From assembly GCA_035504415.1 (NCBI GenBank), contig DATJRY010000007.1:124001-188000 (forward strand): DNA of 64,000 nucleotides. The letters are read 5' to 3'. The translations under genes were made by a program, and so were the position numbers. The DNA is from Candidatus Sulfotelmatobacter sp. GTDB lineage: Bacteria; Vulcanimicrobiota; Vulcanimicrobiia; Vulcanimicrobiales; Vulcanimicrobiaceae. The notes beneath the pieces are model-generated. The model worked only from the letters and a program-made list of their open reading frames with translations, did no database searches and had not been told where the DNA came from. Position 1 is the stretch's first letter. Every line of letters starts with the position of its first letter. Shown here piece after piece: positions 35,174 through 42,041 of the stretch.

Positions 35174-35230
35174 CGAGAAGTCGGCGATGCCGCCGGGTTA
35201 TCCGTGCCGCGCCGTGGCTCCCGCGTCCGC

Positions 35231-35698
35231 TCAGCGGCAGACGTTCTCGAAATCCGTCGAGGAGGCGACAAGCCAGAGTCTGACCGGGGGACGATGATCC
35301 TCCGAGAGGCCGAGAAAGACGAAGCGCAGCGGACCTACGTGCCGACCGTCGTCCGAAACGGCGACCGCGTCGATGCGATAGTGTCGCGCCTGCACGTCGT
35401 TGTCGATGATCGGGACTTGGTCGTGGAAGCGATCGACGCTCCAGTACCCGACGACGCCGCCGGCCGGAGCTCTGACTTCATTTTGGACGAGGTCTTCGAA
35501 GGGGCGTAACGTCTCGTACGGGGCGGCGGTGAAATACGCTTCGTCGACAAGAGCGCTGGCGACCCGACGGAGCGCTTCCGTATCCGCGGAACTCCCAGCG
35601 GGGCAGTAGGAGACGACCCGGGCCGGCGCGGGAACCGTGGGGGCAGCCGCGCACCCGGTCAGCAGCGCGACCACGATTCCCGCGAAGGTGCTTCGCAA
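35231..35698 (-). CDS. Small lipoprotein of unknown function
   Basis: 155 residues from TTG (GAGG seven bases upstream). The signal ends in a clear lipobox, LLTGC, with lipid-carrying Cys at about residue 16. The mature protein is a compact alpha/beta domain (LRRVASALVDEAYFTAA, VGYWSVDRFHDQVPI, LRFVFLGLSEDH). No family recognised. It begins seven bases after the preceding small secreted gene, so it is part of the secretin/caspase-like operon. Confidence 0.6.
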   Translation of the reverse strand: MRSTFAGIVVALLTGCAAAPTVPAPARVVSYCPAGSSADTEALRRVASALVDEAYFTAAPYETLRPFEDLVQNEVRAPAGGVVGYWSVDRFHDQVPIIDNDVQARHYRIDAVAVSDDGRHVGPLRFVFLGLSEDHRPPVRLWLVASSTDFENVCR

Positions 35699-35705
35699 AC
35701 GCGCC

Positions 35706-36155
35706 TCAGTGAGCTTTTGCAGGCGTCGACGACGAACTGCCGGCCGGTGTCAGCTGAATCATTCCATATTCTATGACATGAGTGGTTTGGCTGTAAACGT
35801 ATGAGTGAATCCACGTGCCGGTTCGATCGACGACCTGCGTCTGCACAAGCAGTCCGGAGCTCGGGCCGTTGAGCCGAGTAAAGCCGATCGCGGCGAGGTC
35901 GCGCGTCGTCACGGACCGCGTGGCGAGCAGGCGGACAGAGGGCATCGGACCCCGATGGTTGATCCGAAAGCGCTCGGCACGAGCGGTTCGGGCGATCGCA
36001 TCGTTGACGATGTTCGCATTTCGAAGCACGAGCGGCCGGCGGTGAATATTTCGCACCTGCGGCATCTGTTGCGTCGCCGTTGCGGGCGTTTCGTGCGCTG
36101 CCACGCCGAGCACGGCCAGCACTACTACGGCGAACATCTTATTGAACGAAGGCAT
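35706..36155 (-). CDS. Small secreted protein of unknown function
   Basis: 149 residues. A signal peptide (MPSFNKMFAVVVLAVLGVAA) is followed by a basic N-terminal region and a beta-rich C-terminal half (LLVQTQVVDRTGTWIHSYVY, THVIEYGMIQL), ending in a Ser/Pro/Ala tail. The ATG lies 17 bases inside the upstream caspase-like gene, implying translational coupling. No family recognised. Confidence 0.6.
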   Translation of the reverse strand: MPSFNKMFAVVVLAVLGVAAHETPATATQQMPQVRNIHRRPLVLRNANIVNDAIARTARAERFRINHRGPMPSVRLLATRSVTTRDLAAIGFTRLNGPSSGLLVQTQVVDRTGTWIHSYVYSQTTHVIEYGMIQLTPAGSSSSTPAKAH

Positions 36156-37896
36156 CAATGCTCTCCACGGCGCCGGAATATGCGTCTACCGAGACGACAT
36201 AGTGTCCGCTATAGAAGAAATGAAACGCGGGGTAGGCTGTGTTGTCGGTCGACGTTATCGATGGCGTCCAATAGCCATACAGGTAGCCCAGGGGCTGCCC
36301 CAGCGTGGTGGCCCCTTTGATCGATTGATCCTGAGACGCGATGGAGAAGGCTTGGGCCGGTGAAAGAGCGGGTGAGCCGGTCCCGTTCACCCCCGTAGGA
36401 TAGCGAACGGCATTTGGTTCGCGCCACAGGCGATAGTAATAGTTGAGGTGGAGCGTGTAAGTCATCTCCCACTGAATACATGTCGGGACAGGCCCGTGCG
36501 GGCCGACGACGATGACCTTCGTTTCGGTGCAGACCTGCTTCTCGGTGTTGTCCACACCGACTCGAATGAAATCGCCGCCGAGGATCGGGGTGTTATGCTT
36601 CCAGACGAAGTCGTAACCTATCAGGACGGGCGCCTCACTGCCCGTTGTCATGTAGACGGAGACCACGTTTTGCAGCTGCGCGTCGCTGGGCAGAGGGTTG
36701 TAACTTTGCTGGCTCGAGATGGCGAAGTTCTCGGCAGCCGAAACAGCGTAGTTCATTGGCACGCGAGTGCTCGATCCGCTGGCGATCAACCCTTGGCTTC
36801 CCTCATAGTGGCTTGCTACAAAAGCAGAGCCTGCCATCCGGTACTCGTTCGAAGAAGGGGACTCGGTCGTTACGCCCGGATTCTGTGCATTCGCGGCCGA
36901 AAAAAGCGCCGCATCGCTGTACGACTCGGTCGTCATCGCCAACGGTAGATATTGCCCGGGGGAGGACGACGATATCTGAGACTGCGGAACGATCGGGAGT
37001 GGATAGGCCGTAGAACCGTCATTGTCGGTGTAGACCACCGGATTGCTGTCCGAGTAGACGCCCGTACTCTGCTCTGTGCTTCCGAGATGATCGCCGTTGC
37101 CGAGATCAGCCCCGTTGCTATTGATACCGCTCGCGTCTTCGAGTTCCCATTCGCCGAAATTTGTATTGGCAGCTCCGACCGCATCTCGCCAGGCATCGTG
37201 AACGTCGGTGCCGGAGTTTGAGCCGACGTTGGCCGCAGCGGAGACGAACGTGTCGGCGACGTTTTTCGCGGTGTCCGGCAGGTCGGTCGGCTCGCCTTCG
37301 ACGCCATAGTAGCCATGAAGACCTTGCGAGCTCGTGTTGAAGATATAGGGCCAGTTCTGATCCGTGGTACAGACGGATGCATACGCGAAGATCCACTTCA
37401 GCCGCCCGGCCATCGGAACGTTCGCGGAGGCCCCGTTGAAGCATTCGACGTCCGGCGAGTACCCCTTCGAGCTGCAGTCGCCTTCGTTGCTGCCCGTTGG
37501 ATCGTATTCGTTCAGTACAATGAAGCCGTCGTCTCCGTGCCCCGAGTACCATATGAAGTCGGCATTTTCCGCATTGCTGCTTGTGAAGCTTGACGCATGG
37601 ACGGCTGGGTCGCTGGTTGTACCCGTGGCAAACGTGCAAGCACCGTCATTGTCTTCGATGGAACTGGTGCGGGTCCAAGACTTTGCGGTGAGACGTGAGT
37701 TGAGTTCGGGGACGTCCGCGTTTTGCAGGCAGCTATTGTATGCGAAGAACGGGTAGTAGTGTTGGTGGAGCGTAACGAAATTGCCCGGCGGGGGCGGAGC
37801 AGTACCGCTGCCGCCGACTCCGCAACCGCATAGCGTCGCGGCGCAGACTGCTAGTAGCGCGACTATCGATCGTTGCACAGTCGATGAACCTTTCAA
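36139..37896 (-). CDS. Caspase/gingipain-like (DUF6345-like) lipoprotein
   Basis: 585 residues. The signal ends in TLCGC, with C25 as the likely lipid-attached cysteine (Cys at -2 is unusual). Residues ~40-260 resemble the clan CD caspase/gingipain fold as in DUF6345: a strand before histidine in DFIWYSGHGDDGF (H120) and a strand before cysteine in WIFAYASVCTTDQNW (C176), the expected His-Cys dyad order and spacing. The rest (~270-585) is beta-rich and unrecognised, with KVIVVGPHGPVP and a YYYRLWREPNA segment. The start overlaps the secretin stop by four bases (37893-37896). Protease activity is a prediction from the dyad only. Base composition is visibly lower in GC than the flanks. Confidence 0.65.
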   Translation of the reverse strand: MKGSSTVQRSIVALLAVCAATLCGCGVGGSGTAPPPPGNFVTLHQHYYPFFAYNSCLQNADVPELNSRLTAKSWTRTSSIEDNDGACTFATGTTSDPAVHASSFTSSNAENADFIWYSGHGDDGFIVLNEYDPTGSNEGDCSSKGYSPDVECFNGASANVPMAGRLKWIFAYASVCTTDQNWPYIFNTSSQGLHGYYGVEGEPTDLPDTAKNVADTFVSAAANVGSNSGTDVHDAWRDAVGAANTNFGEWELEDASGINSNGADLGNGDHLGSTEQSTGVYSDSNPVVYTDNDGSTAYPLPIVPQSQISSSSPGQYLPLAMTTESYSDAALFSAANAQNPGVTTESPSSNEYRMAGSAFVASHYEGSQGLIASGSSTRVPMNYAVSAAENFAISSQQSYNPLPSDAQLQNVVSVYMTTGSEAPVLIGYDFVWKHNTPILGGDFIRVGVDNTEKQVCTETKVIVVGPHGPVPTCIQWEMTYTLHLNYYYRLWREPNAVRYPTGVNGTGSPALSPAQAFSIASQDQSIKGATTLGQPLGYLYGYWTPSITSTDNTAYPAFHFFYSGHYVVSVDAYSGAVESIDAFVQ

Positions 37897-39308
37897 GAGT
37901 GGCTTTGATCCGGAGACGGCGCATTGGTGATGTGCGGCGTGACGACGATATAGAGATTTGTGTTTACCCGTTGCTCGGTACGGTTTCGAAAGAAACTCCC
38001 AAGTAGGGGTAGGTCGCCTAAAAGCGGGATCTTGGAAAGGCTGTTGATCTCGCTGTCCTCTATCAAGCCTCCGATAACGAAGGACTGACCGTCACGTACA
38101 GTCGCCGCCGTCGTCGCCGTACGTTGTGTGATTTCGGGGTAGCCCTGCACGTATGAGCTCACACTGGAGACTTCCGAGTAGATGTGGAAGTTGATGAAGC
38201 CGTCAGGCGAAACGCGTGGCTGAATTTGAAGATTCACGCCGACGGTCACGTACTGCACCTGTTGCTGCGTAAGAGTCGCCGAGCCGAAGCTCGTCAACGT
38301 CGTAACGACCGGAATCTCATCGCCGGTGAGAATCGATGCCGGCGACCCGCTTTGCGCGACGATGCTCGGTCGCGCAAGAAGTTTTCCGCCACCCTTCGTA
38401 ACGACGTCGTAGATTTGTGCCTGCAAGTTCAAGCTCGACGTGGCGAGGCTTTGGCTTTTGAGCTGCGTCGAAACGGCAGCAATGGGACCGCCGGCGTTTG
38501 TGTAGTCGATGCCGACTTGCTTAGCGGCACTGTCGGTAAGCTCGACGATCTGCGTTTCGAGGGTCACGGTTGGAAGGGGCACGTCCAGTTGTGCGATTAG
38601 GCTGCGCAATTCGGCGACGCGTTCCGGCGTACCGGTAAGGATGATCGCGTTGAGGCGGCGATCAATGGCGAGCTCGTCCGTCAGCTTCTGCCCGAGGGCC
38701 TGCGTCGACGCTGGGCTTGCGACCGATATCGATTGCGCCGCAACGATGCCGCCGGAGGCGCCGCCGATTGATGAGGCGCTTTGGCTGATTTGTGATGGTT
38801 GCGGCGCAAAGGTATCATTAACAGGCACGGTCTGCCCCTCGATGAGGGCACCCGCAATCTCGCTCACGTCGGCGAAGTGTAAGATGACGACGGCAGTCGT
38901 CGCGCCGAGCACGATGGGCAGTCGCCTCATTGCTTCTTGCTTGCTCGGGGGGCTACGATCGCGAGAGATCGATAGTTCGATGGTGTTTGCCGTGGCGGAG
39001 AAATCGACGTGAGCCGGGACTGCGACGAGGATCAGTATGTTGAGGTCGCCGCCGATGAGGTTGACCCGGACGGACTCTACGAGTGCGCCTGCGACGGCGA
39101 TTGGCCTAAACTGCGGCGCGATACGCGTCTGTATGCATTGCACAACAATCGCGCTTGCGGCTTGCGGCGGAACGTTGCAGCGCGGTATTGGGCCCGAGAA
39201 TCTTAGGGTGAGATCGGCATGGTCGGCCGAGCCGTGTTCGAGCGCGCCACTCACGATGATGGACGCGTTCGGCTGCGCGTTCACGGGCCGAACCGTGGCG
39301 CAGAACAT
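37893..39308 (-). CDS. Orphan secretin (GspD/PilQ-type outer-membrane channel)
   Basis: 471 residues from the ATG at 39308. Residues ~215-270 contain an N-domain (LAIDRRLNAIILTGTPERVAELRSL in two parts, IAQLDVPLPTVTLETQIVE). The secretin core follows: 'LARPSIVAQSGSPASILTGDEIPV', 'VNLQIQPRVSPDGFI' and the signature 'IGGLIEDSEINSLSKIPLLGDLPLLGSFF'. Secretins form multimeric outer-membrane gates for type II/III secretion or type IV pili, but no ATPase, pilin or platform gene is nearby. The true N-terminus is probably longer: in-frame codons upstream encode RRTSVLLIAMFCATV, a signal-peptide core, without a standard start codon. Confidence 0.85.
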   Translation of the reverse strand: MFCATVRPVNAQPNASIIVSGALEHGSADHADLTLRFSGPIPRCNVPPQAASAIVVQCIQTRIAPQFRPIAVAGALVESVRVNLIGGDLNILILVAVPAHVDFSATANTIELSISRDRSPPSKQEAMRRLPIVLGATTAVVILHFADVSEIAGALIEGQTVPVNDTFAPQPSQISQSASSIGGASGGIVAAQSISVASPASTQALGQKLTDELAIDRRLNAIILTGTPERVAELRSLIAQLDVPLPTVTLETQIVELTDSAAKQVGIDYTNAGGPIAAVSTQLKSQSLATSSLNLQAQIYDVVTKGGGKLLARPSIVAQSGSPASILTGDEIPVVTTLTSFGSATLTQQQVQYVTVGVNLQIQPRVSPDGFINFHIYSEVSSVSSYVQGYPEITQRTATTAATVRDGQSFVIGGLIEDSEINSLSKIPLLGDLPLLGSFFRNRTEQRVNTNLYIVVTPHITNAPSPDQSHS

Positions 39309-39543
39309 AGCGATGAGGAGGACTGACGTACGCCTCGGCGTTTGAAGGACGCAGCCGCGCTTGTATGTGGCCGTGACAAGACCATCCTGTGGTGCGCAGC
39401 GAACGACGATATATTCCGTCGTCCGCTAGTATGGCACTACAGGTCGGTCGCGTGCTGCTCCCGTCGAGCTGCGATTATTGATTATCGATCGTGACTGTCA
39501 GTATCGACCAACGAGAACCGGCGTGGCTCGGACTCGAGGTCGT

Positions 39544-40228
39544 TCACTCGGCGAAGACCTCTACCGCGACGACTTTGCCCGAGACGATGCGCCCGACGCA
39601 GGTGTCGGTCGAGTCGTTGATGAGGTGGCCATCGACGAGCTGGTGAAGTTCGAGTTCGAGTAGCCGCCCGCGACGGTGCCCGACCAACCGTTGCGGCCCA
39701 GCGAGGTCGCGTTCTCGCTGCGCTCGTCGTTGAACGACTGCACGATGCGCCCGGTCAGCGCGTCGACGACCTTAACCGAGACTTTGAGCGTCGTACGGCT
39801 GCTGTGCACCGAGCCCGCGATCGAGCCGGCAACGCCGGCAGAAAGCCGGCGCCGCCGCTGCGCCCGGTGACGTCCAACTGCACCACGTTGCCGGAGATGA
39901 GATAGCGCGCTCCGATGAGCCGGCCGGCGCTGACGGCGGAGGCCGGATCGACCTCGCCGCCCGCGCCCAAGTGGTGCTCGTTCAGCGTCGAGGTGAGGTG
40001 GCTGCGATCGACGACCGAGAGCTGTCCTTTGCTGACGAGCGCGTCGGTCACCAGGTCCGCCAGCGCGACGCCGGGTTCGAACTGGCCGTAATTGCTGCCG
40101 GTCAGGCCTTTGGTGTCGAAGTCGAGTACGGCCGCGGTCGGCGGTCCGGCCGCACACGCGCCGGACGGCGTGCCGAGCGTCGTCGCGGACACGACCGCGC
40201 ACGCAAGCGCGAAGACGATTCGTCGCAC
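39544..40228 (-). pseudogene. CsgG-family protein gene broken by two frameshifts
   Basis: From the GTG at 40228 (GGAGGG six bases upstream) a signal peptide leads into a CsgG-family domain: 'TAAVLDFDTKGLTG', 'ALADLVTDALVSKGQLSVVDR' and 'AGRLIGARYLISGNVVQLDVTG'. The frame then shifts near 39830-39850 into 'GVAGSIAGSVHSSRTTLKVSV' and 'VVDALTGRIVQSFNDE', and shifts again near 39641-39650 into 'HQLVDGHLINDSTD' and 'GRIVSGKVVAVEVFAE', ending at TGA 39544. Each shift looks like one missing base. CsgG forms an outer-membrane secretion channel. This may be a decayed gene or sequencing error. Confidence 0.75.
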
Positions 40229-40347
40229 GGTGAGTCCCTCCAAGAAAGCGAGGCAGGCGCACTTGGGGGCGTACGCGGTACTCCCGAACTTGGCTCGCTC
40301 TGAAAACCGACCCTGCTCTCGCTCAATACCTCTACCGAAGGGCTCGT

Positions 40348-40698
40348 CTATCGGCTGGCGCGGTCGACCCACCAGAGCAGCGGCAGCTGCAGCGGCACGC
40401 GTGCCCAGATGACCCAAGCCGGCGCGACGCGCCGGAAGCGCTTCGCCTCGAGCGCCATCCCGATGTTGGCCGGCCAGACTCCGAGCAACAGCAGCATGAG
40501 CCCAATGCCCGCCGGCCGCCGCGTGCCGGGAAGCAGCAGTCCGATTGCGCCGGCGATCTCCGCCGCGCCGGTGATGCGTACGAGCATCTTGGGGTCGCCG
40601 AAGCGCGGCGGCACGATGGCCTCGAACGGACGCGGGCGCACGAAATGCAAGATGCCCGACGTCAAGAAAAGGGCCGCGAGCGGGAGGCGTGCGCGCAT
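40348..40698 (-). CDS. Small DoxX-like membrane protein
   Basis: 116 residues with four transmembrane helices, starting at the ATG at 40698 (MRARLPLAALFLTSGILHFVRP). Segments 'FVRPRPFEAIVPPRFGDPKMLV' (in two parts) and 'RITGAAEIAGAIGLLLPGTRR' are typical of the DoxX-like family. Divergent from the cyclopropane synthase gene, with 71 bases between the starts. Confidence 0.78.
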   Translation of the reverse strand: MRARLPLAALFLTSGILHFVRPRPFEAIVPPRFGDPKMLVRITGAAEIAGAIGLLLPGTRRPAGIGLMLLLLGVWPANIGMALEAKRFRRVAPAWVIWARVPLQLPLLWWVDRASR

Positions 40699-40769
40699 CC
40701 GCGGACGTTCAGCGCCGGGCCCGCGGCATCCGCGCAGGGGTGCGCGGCGAGGACGCGGGATACGTCGCG

Positions 40770-42041
40770 ATGGCGACCGTAACGACCGAACCGGCGATCG
40801 AGCGTTCCAAGGCGGTGCTGGAGGGACTGTTCGGCCCACAGCTCGGCAACGAGGTGGCGGTCCGCCTGTGGGACGGCAGCGAGATTCCCGCGTCGTCGCC
40901 CGCCTTCACGCTGCTGGTCAACGCGCCGTACGCGCTGCGCGCGGCCTTCACGCCGCCGCTCGACGCCAACCCCGGCCGCGCGTTCGTCGAGGGTTGGATC
41001 GACATCGTCGGCGACGTCGAGCTCGCGCTGGATACGCTCGAACGGTCGGTGACGCGGCTCTCGAAGCTCGCGCTGGCGCGCCTAGCGATGCTGCTGGCGC
41101 GCTTGCCGCGTGCGCCGCGCCACCACCACGGGCGCGCGCGGCTGCACGGAAAGGTGCACTCGAAAGCGCGCGACGCGGCGGCGATCGGGTTCCACTACGA
41201 CCAGCCGGTCGCGTTCTACCGCACCTTCCTGGGCCGCGAGCTGGTGTACTCGTGCGCATATTGGGACGACGGCGTGACCGACCTCGACGGCGCGCAGCGC
41301 GCGAAGCTCGACTACGTCCTCGACAAGGTGCGCTTGCGCGCCGGCCAGACGTTCTTGGACATCGGGTGCGGGTGGGGCGGCCTGGTGCTGCGGGCGGCGC
41401 AGCGCGGCGCGCGCGCGCTCGGCGTTACGCTCTCGCGCCGCCAGCACGAAGAAGCGCAGCGCCGCATCGCCGAGGCCGGACTCGAGGATCGCGCGCGGGT
41501 CGAGCTGCGTGACTACCGTGAGCTAGGCGACCTGCAGTTCGACGCGATCGCGTCGGTGGGAATGGTCGAGCACGTCGGGCGCGAACGGCTGGGTGAGTAT
41601 TTCCGCTGCGCGTACCGCGCGCTGCGCGAGGGTGGCCTGTTCCTCAACCACGGCATCGTGCAGCAGGGCCGCGACGGGAAAGGGTATCGCGCCAGCGACG
41701 ATTTCATCGGCCGCTACGTGTTTCCCGACGGCGACTTGGTGCCGGTCGACGTCACCACCCGCGCGGCGGAATCGGTCGGTTTCGAAGTGCGCGACGTCGA
41801 GAACCTGCGCGAGCACTACGCCCGCACGCTGCGTGCCTGGGGGACGAATCTGGAGGCGAATCGCGTGACCGCGATCGACGCGACCGACGCGCGCACCGAA
41901 CGCATCTGGCGCATCTACATGGCCGGCAGCGCGCGCGGCTTCGCGCTCGGCCGCATGGGATTGATGCAAACGCTGCTCGGGAAGCCCCGTTCCAACGGCG
42001 TCACCGACGTTCCGCCGACGCGCCGCGACCTCTATCGCTGA
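40770..42041 (+). CDS. cfa: Cyclopropane-fatty-acyl-phospholipid synthase
   Basis: 423 residues. It transfers a methylene from SAM to the double bond of membrane phospholipid acyl chains. Seen: an N-terminal lipid-binding domain (~1-130), the motif IGFHYDQPVAFYRTFL, the SAM site LDIGCGWGGLVLRAAQ, GVTLSRRQHEEAQ, MVEHVGRERLGEYF, YVFPDGDLVP and VENLREHYARTLRAW. The order and length match CFA synthases. It consumes SAM made by metK. Confidence 0.95.
   Translation: MATVTTEPAIERSKAVLEGLFGPQLGNEVAVRLWDGSEIPASSPAFTLLVNAPYALRAAFTPPLDANPGRAFVEGWIDIVGDVELALDTLERSVTRLSKLALARLAMLLARLPRAPRHHHGRARLHGKVHSKARDAAAIGFHYDQPVAFYRTFLGRELVYSCAYWDDGVTDLDGAQRAKLDYVLDKVRLRAGQTFLDIGCGWGGLVLRAAQRGARALGVTLSRRQHEEAQRRIAEAGLEDRARVELRDYRELGDLQFDAIASVGMVEHVGRERLGEYFRCAYRALREGGLFLNHGIVQQGRDGKGYRASDDFIGRYVFPDGDLVPVDVTTRAAESVGFEVRDVENLREHYARTLRAWGTNLEANRVTAIDATDARTERIWRIYMAGSARGFALGRMGLMQTLLGKPRSNGVTDVPPTRRDLYR

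Follow-up and report, generated by a model that had tools for sequence, protein, structure and literature searches.

The window, a 64,000-nucleotide stretch of contig C7 (C7:124001-188000) from a 4.17-Mb genome that is 96% complete, contains a packed four-gene operon on the minus strand, in which a secretin gene comes first and is followed by P0001, P0002 and P0003 (Table 1). The stop codon of the secretin gene overlaps the TTG start of P0001, P0001 in turn overlaps P0002, and P0003 starts 7 nt after P0002. These coordinates bear out the gene order given in the initial annotation, which had described a secretin gene overlapping that of a caspase-like lipoprotein, followed by genes for a small secreted protein and a lipoprotein. 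Its claim that all four products carry export signals agrees with what inspection showed: the signals of P0001 and P0003 look to be of the lipobox type, that of P0002 looks like a plain signal peptide, and the signal of the secretin is encoded in frame upstream of its ATG.

Table 1. Features of the window and of related secretin loci in the phylum.
Feature	Position or locus	Strand	Remarks
Secretin, apparently minimal	37893..39308	-	Beta-rich, possibly AMIN-like N-terminus, single Secretin_N, secretin core
P0001, predicted caspase-fold (DUF6345-like) lipoprotein with PepSY-like C-terminal half	36139..37896	-	GHG kept, nucleophile Cys replaced
P0002, small exported protein, 150 aa	35706..36158	-	Conserved partner of caspase-fold gene; homologues in G122
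P0003, 155-aa lipoprotein, candidate pilotin-like partner	35231..35698	-	Homologous to lipoprotein directly after related secretins
Insertion relative to sister species	35179..40841		Limits approximate; between AlkZ-like and cyclopropane-fatty-acid-synthase-like genes
Intact loci pairing secretin and caspase-fold genes	Window, C12, G117 (two), G033, G104, G067 (two, tandem sets), G063, G065		
GDSL hydrolase beside secretin	L030, L032 (two), L034, L037, L039, L059		
Beta-lactamase-family enzyme beside secretin	L007		
Subtilase beside secretin	L031		
M10-type metalloprotease beside secretin	L039		

The first gene encodes a genuine secretin of 471 aa, counted from the ATG. Its core matches Pfam Secretin (PF00263) far past chance (E 1.9e-44; 151.7 bits, cut-off 27.5), placing the protein in that family and agreeing with the earlier description of a complete secretin core, and one Secretin_N domain was detected in addition (Pfam, E 1.1e-8). 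The reading frame remains open on to 39425, upstream of the ATG at 39308, and a good signal peptide (KRGCVLQTPRRTSVLLIAMFCATVRPVNA) is encoded there in frame, reaching to about 39400, which a start at the ATG would cut. No ATG, GTG or TTG was found in frame ahead of this signal peptide (37893-39425, minus strand), leaving an unusual start or a local sequence error as explanations. Profile searches returned no STN/N0 domain in the 14 members of the secretin family and one weak AMIN match among them (Pfam, E 0.078); in the predicted structure, a low-confidence model (pLDDT 41), the N-terminus of the window secretin is all-beta. Judged by these domain profiles, it appears to be of a minimal type in which no N0 is found. 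It scored 179 bits against the GspD equivalog profile (cut-off 351) and 155 bits against the PilQ subfamily profile (cut-off 284), below the threshold in either case; the latter cut-off is a demanding one in this phylum, as the PilQ of the genome's own pilus cluster reaches just 185 bits. That PilQ matches STN weakly (E 0.01).

P0001 matches DUF6345 (PF19872) with an E value of 4.4e-5 and 23.5 bits, below the cut-off of 26.9 bits, which its relatives in G104 and G122 exceed. Its predicted structure is poor (pLDDT 43), as is that of the secretin, and therefore we used the models for nothing beyond the fold class of P0001 and the N-terminal strand pattern of the secretin. Foldseek returned caspases in nearly all top rows, and all 50 VIA-align rows for residues 32-275 were clan CD folds, with a SAVED-CHAT protein (Z 11.6) and gingipain RgpB (Z 11.3) at the top, so that P0001 is predicted, from a low-confidence model, to have a caspase-like fold. 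It would thus share this fold and the conserved His with gingipains, caspases, CHAT proteins and Pfam DUF6345 proteins, the GHG motif that holds the His being invariant in the P0001 family. Unlike them, however, P0001 is a lipoprotein with a PepSY-like half (a weak match in 4 of 11 family members, best E 0.012) and has no nucleophile Cys: in all 11 relatives aligned, the nucleophile position is occupied by Ser, Ala or Gly and followed by an invariant Ser, whereas other DUF6345 proteins of the phylum keep the Cys, as SC or NC where the next core strand ends. The window protein has a Cys two residues past the invariant Ser (C176), which is Asp in G122, a member of the same genus, and is hence unconserved. 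As far as the alignment tells, the family thus lacks the His-Cys dyad of clan CD cysteine peptidases; with no Cys at the nucleophile position, P0001 is probably not a cysteine protease, and we rejected the active-caspase reading on this ground. Elsewhere in the phylum (L093 in G128), a DUF6345 protein whose motifs are SHG and SNC lies upstream of an apparent phage-tail-type gene.

The two remaining genes have relatives in similar company. Homologues of P0002 adjoin both caspase-fold copies of the sister species G122 (E 1e-25 and 3e-15). Its kinship with the small exported protein of other operons is weak (leave-one-out E 0.14), and its membership of a wider small-protein family was left aside as suggestive only. 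Homologues of P0003 likewise lie beside both caspase-fold copies of G122 (E 3e-17 and 4e-15), and the P0003 profile also matches the lipoprotein directly after the secretin at L054, L057, L058 and L065 (E 2.5e-10 to 2e-6; hhalign 9e-12), loci from four genera that carry no caspase-fold gene. The family therefore occurs with a secretin alone, with caspase-fold genes that have no secretin seen beside them (G122) and, in the window, with both. Because it is tied to both the secretin and the caspase-fold protein, to each independently, we regard P0003 as the strongest argument for a single functional unit in the window operon; its gene associations also make it a candidate pilotin-like partner of the secretin. 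Comparison of P0003 with serpins gave no match. In family f3 (L069-L076), where there is one secretin, the gene order is fixed and the secretin precedes another conserved lipoprotein, of 155-161 aa (CNDHSLSLTLTPNPL).

Searching 149 genomes of the phylum, Candidatus Eremiobacterota, with a two-row P0001 profile yielded matches in 12, all of one family, and the pairing of secretin and caspase-fold genes recurred at ten intact loci in seven genomes of that family (Table 1). The same pairing was thus present in related genomes, contrary to the possibility raised with the initial annotation that homologues of these genes might not be adjacent elsewhere. Not counted among the ten is a set in G068 that seems split by a contig break; in G055, a secretin, a GDSL hydrolase and a small protein run up to the contig end. 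The pairing occurs twice in the genome studied here, with sets on both C7 and C12: the C12 secretin is 42% identical to that of the window over 350 aa, and its gene overlaps a P0001 paralogue (26%, E 1e-21) in an order opposite to that of the window, followed by a beta-lactamase-family hydrolase. At L032:159-10867 in G067, the set of caspase-fold, lipoprotein, secretin and GDSL genes is duplicated in tandem, and the second secretin is split over two frames. Elsewhere, the gene for the small exported protein usually comes first, then those for the caspase-fold lipoprotein, a further lipoprotein or a serpin, the secretin and the hydrolase. Weighing against a unit, the caspase-fold gene has no adjacent secretin in G103, where a serpin accompanies it, nor apparently in G122, as far as its short contigs show.

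The pairing is real, and the secretin and caspase-fold proteins vary together: their identity matrices correlate with r = 0.86 over all loci and with r = 0.69 when one locus per close group is kept (32 of 5,040 permutations, p = 0.006). The secretins themselves are far more widespread, with a profile from the 14-member alignment matching 51 of the 149 genomes at E <= 1e-60, many of them in single copy within conserved neighbourhoods. On the secretin tree, where the window secretin forms a long, unplaced branch, the pairing needs at least five label changes, and therefore it was gained or lost repeatedly; vertical inheritance of the pairing was rejected for the same reason.

Most of the other operons include a variable hydrolase (GDSL, subtilase or beta-lactamase fold; Table 1) or a serpin. 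Hydrolase genes are missing from the operons of the window and of G117, and the search for serpins gave no match in the window. Serpins lie between the caspase-fold gene and the secretin at L028, L029 and L031; the protein at this position in G117 and G104 is serpin-related, with those at L029 and L031 exceeding the Pfam cut-off, and is also related to the G103 serpin (hhalign E 7e-7). Direct adjacency of caspase-fold lipoprotein and serpin was seen at these three loci and at L041:6299-9315, the G103 locus without an adjacent secretin. In other settings, serpins are known caspase inhibitors.

The window operon, probably acquired horizontally, lies within a 5.6-kb insertion absent from sister species. 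At the corresponding junction in G119, 163 bp separate the matching flanks, compared with 5,664 bp in the window (blastn), and the flanking genes are adjacent in sister genomes (synteny in L084, L085 and L087). The GC content of the operon is 56-61% versus about 68%, and its GC3 about 0.70 (0.77 for P0003) versus 0.89-0.95 in the surrounding genes. No tRNA was found near the insertion, flanking repeats were at chance level, and no integrase was noticed among the ORFs listed for the window. A phage or plasmid origin was rejected, viral contigs, phages and plasmids having yielded no relatives of the caspase-fold gene, as was a defence system: PADLOC gave nothing convincing, and a weak Cas11 match to the secretin N domain was taken as chance. 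Beyond the phylum, coverage of the caspase-fold family consisted of a single pattern scan of genome contigs. Immediately upstream of the secretin, a CsgG/LpoB-like gene (39561-40417, minus strand; Pfam CsgG 2e-14) is apparently split over two frames, reflecting either a frameshifted gene or a sequence error. In another genus, the sahH-metK pair likewise lies upstream of the operon (L030:1318-11555), which there occupies the opposite strand and has its genes in a different order; this may be an insertion hotspot.

A central claim of the initial annotation was that this secretin has no secretion machine. This is correct locally: profiles for T2SSE, T2SSF, prepilin peptidase and N_methyl found no type IV pilus or type II secretion system (T2SS) part on contig C7, so that full type II/IV machinery just outside the window, which would have spoken against the claim, was sought and not found. 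With no linked ATPase, platform, prepilin peptidase or pseudopilins beside the secretin, the locus does not qualify as a T2SS. Genome-wide, the claim fails. Of the three secretins in the genome, that at C10:36 kb is the PilQ of a type IV pilus cluster with PilM, PilN, a prepilin peptidase (A24) and a pseudopilin, the others being those of the window and its paralogue at C12:193 kb. T2SSE matches at C10:232-234 kb and a T2SSF match at C10:235 kb place PilB/PilT and PilC on the same contig, the sole prepilin peptidase match of the genome is at C10:40 kb, and pilin-type N_methyl matches occur on C10, C14 and C6. The related notion of a self-contained envelope system fared better: the genes do behave as a unit, and self-containment is plausible because secretin relatives persist in two draft genomes in which neither T2SSE nor T2SSF was detected (G097, 96% complete, and G079, 91%), with secretins that have no caspase-fold gene beside them.

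Known secretin systems resemble the window operon in part. With the T2SS, it shares a homologous secretin core, a small lipoprotein partner and, in several copies, digestive enzymes encoded alongside, but it contains no ATPase, platform, pseudopilins or GspC. The PilQ of type IVa pili has the same secretin core and perhaps a similar, AMIN-like N-terminus, whereas the window secretin has one N domain and no STN, and shares the genome with a separate PilQ. Filamentous-phage pIV is also a small secretin and was matched by profile in PDB sequences (7ofh); yet no phage genes were noticed around the window secretin, and the caspase-fold gene is absent from the phage and viral collections searched.

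We tentatively favour, as an explanation a little short of an even chance, that the operon is an acquired outer-membrane module whose secretin works independently of a type IV pilus or T2SS motor and passes or displays a restrained, Sec-exported hydrolase. The secretin would need no such motor and would be held in the envelope by its AMIN-like domain and by P0003 acting as an outer-membrane, pilotin-like lipoprotein, while P0001, having lost its catalytic Cys, and P0002 would accompany it, facing the periplasm or the surface. The hydrolase would be bound by the caspase-fold/PepSY protein, together with a serpin in some of the other copies, and kept in check until its release through the secretin. 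As the window operon has no hydrolase gene, its cargo would come from elsewhere or be P0002. Folding of the hydrolase outside, or its binding to surface lipoproteins, could supply the energy. We infer the cargo role of the hydrolase, its restraint, the pilotin role and the motor independence of the window copy.

The main rival to this motor-independent module is a borrowed pilus motor, rather unlikely in our estimate, in which the secretin would dock, as an alternative outer-membrane gate, on the only type IV pilus platform of the genome and so turn the pilus machine to protein secretion. One such platform, with PilQ, is indeed present, and every genome with a caspase-fold operon also has T2SSF, which weighs against a motorless reading. 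Precedent exists in Pseudomonas aeruginosa, where XphA/XqhA, whose genes lie apart from the xcp locus, combine with Xcp parts into a hybrid (PMC6567927). There, too, the secretin is encoded at a distance from the machine, but XqhA is accompanied by the GspC-type XphA, whereas the window operon has other partners and no PilP/GspC-like gene. The persistence of secretin relatives in genomes without T2SSE or T2SSF argues against borrowing. So does the lack of N0/STN in the 14 secretins, this domain being the part of T2SS and type IV pilus secretins that meets inner-membrane partners.

Clearly unlikely is a role in uptake or surface digestion, with polymers or breakdown products passing through a wide secretin pore and a digestion complex of lipoproteins and hydrolases on the surface. 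Adjacent enzymes of digestive types (GDSL, subtilase, M10) and several lipoprotein partners that could be surface-located would suit such a complex; however, no recurrent inner-membrane transporter or TonB-type neighbour was noticed by the caspase-fold copies, and serpins and PepSY-like domains better match enzyme restraint. The model of the initial annotation, in which the channel would either be opened by the caspase-like lipoprotein, acting as a protease, or release it, draws on the caspase fold, the conserved GHG and the overlapping genes. The fold (in a low-confidence model) and the GHG were recovered here, but the Ser, Ala or Gly at the nucleophile position, set against the Cys of other DUF6345 proteins, and an unconserved C176 make this model, with its gating by protease activity, very improbable. 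Already disfavoured and scarcely credible is a mere neighbourhood, with the secretin present by chance among decaying exported genes on a low-GC island. Although the atypical GC and GC3 of the insertion, the adjacent and apparently frameshifted CsgG-like gene and remnants of such genes in G067 and G128 fit this picture, adjacency that recurs in different genera, gene overlaps, co-variation and the tie to P0003 all oppose it.

Beyond the single operon, the recurring sets with a digestive enzyme or a protease inhibitor suggest an undescribed form of enzyme handling at the outer membrane. It is conceivable, if doubtful, that Eremiobacterota have a dedicated secretion route whose secretin works without an energised machine in the inner membrane; in the periplasm, pseudo-caspases and proteins of the serpin type would hold a co-encoded hydrolase in a latent state before passing it on to the channel. 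Our literature search returned no paper on DUF6345 and none relevant on Eremiobacterota secretins. A survey of type IV filaments required an ATPase, a platform and a major pilin in its generic search and treated the secretin as accessory (PMC6668835), so stand-alone secretins would presumably have gone uncounted there. The known role of secretins is that of an outer gate in large machines driven by a motor. Here, a minimal secretin family is found class-wide, often with its own small exported partner, and has been combined many times over with a caspase-fold protein, hydrolases and serpins; it makes a motor-free secretin function, and what would drive it, directly testable, and the operon would give the unnamed DUF6345-like group a setting.
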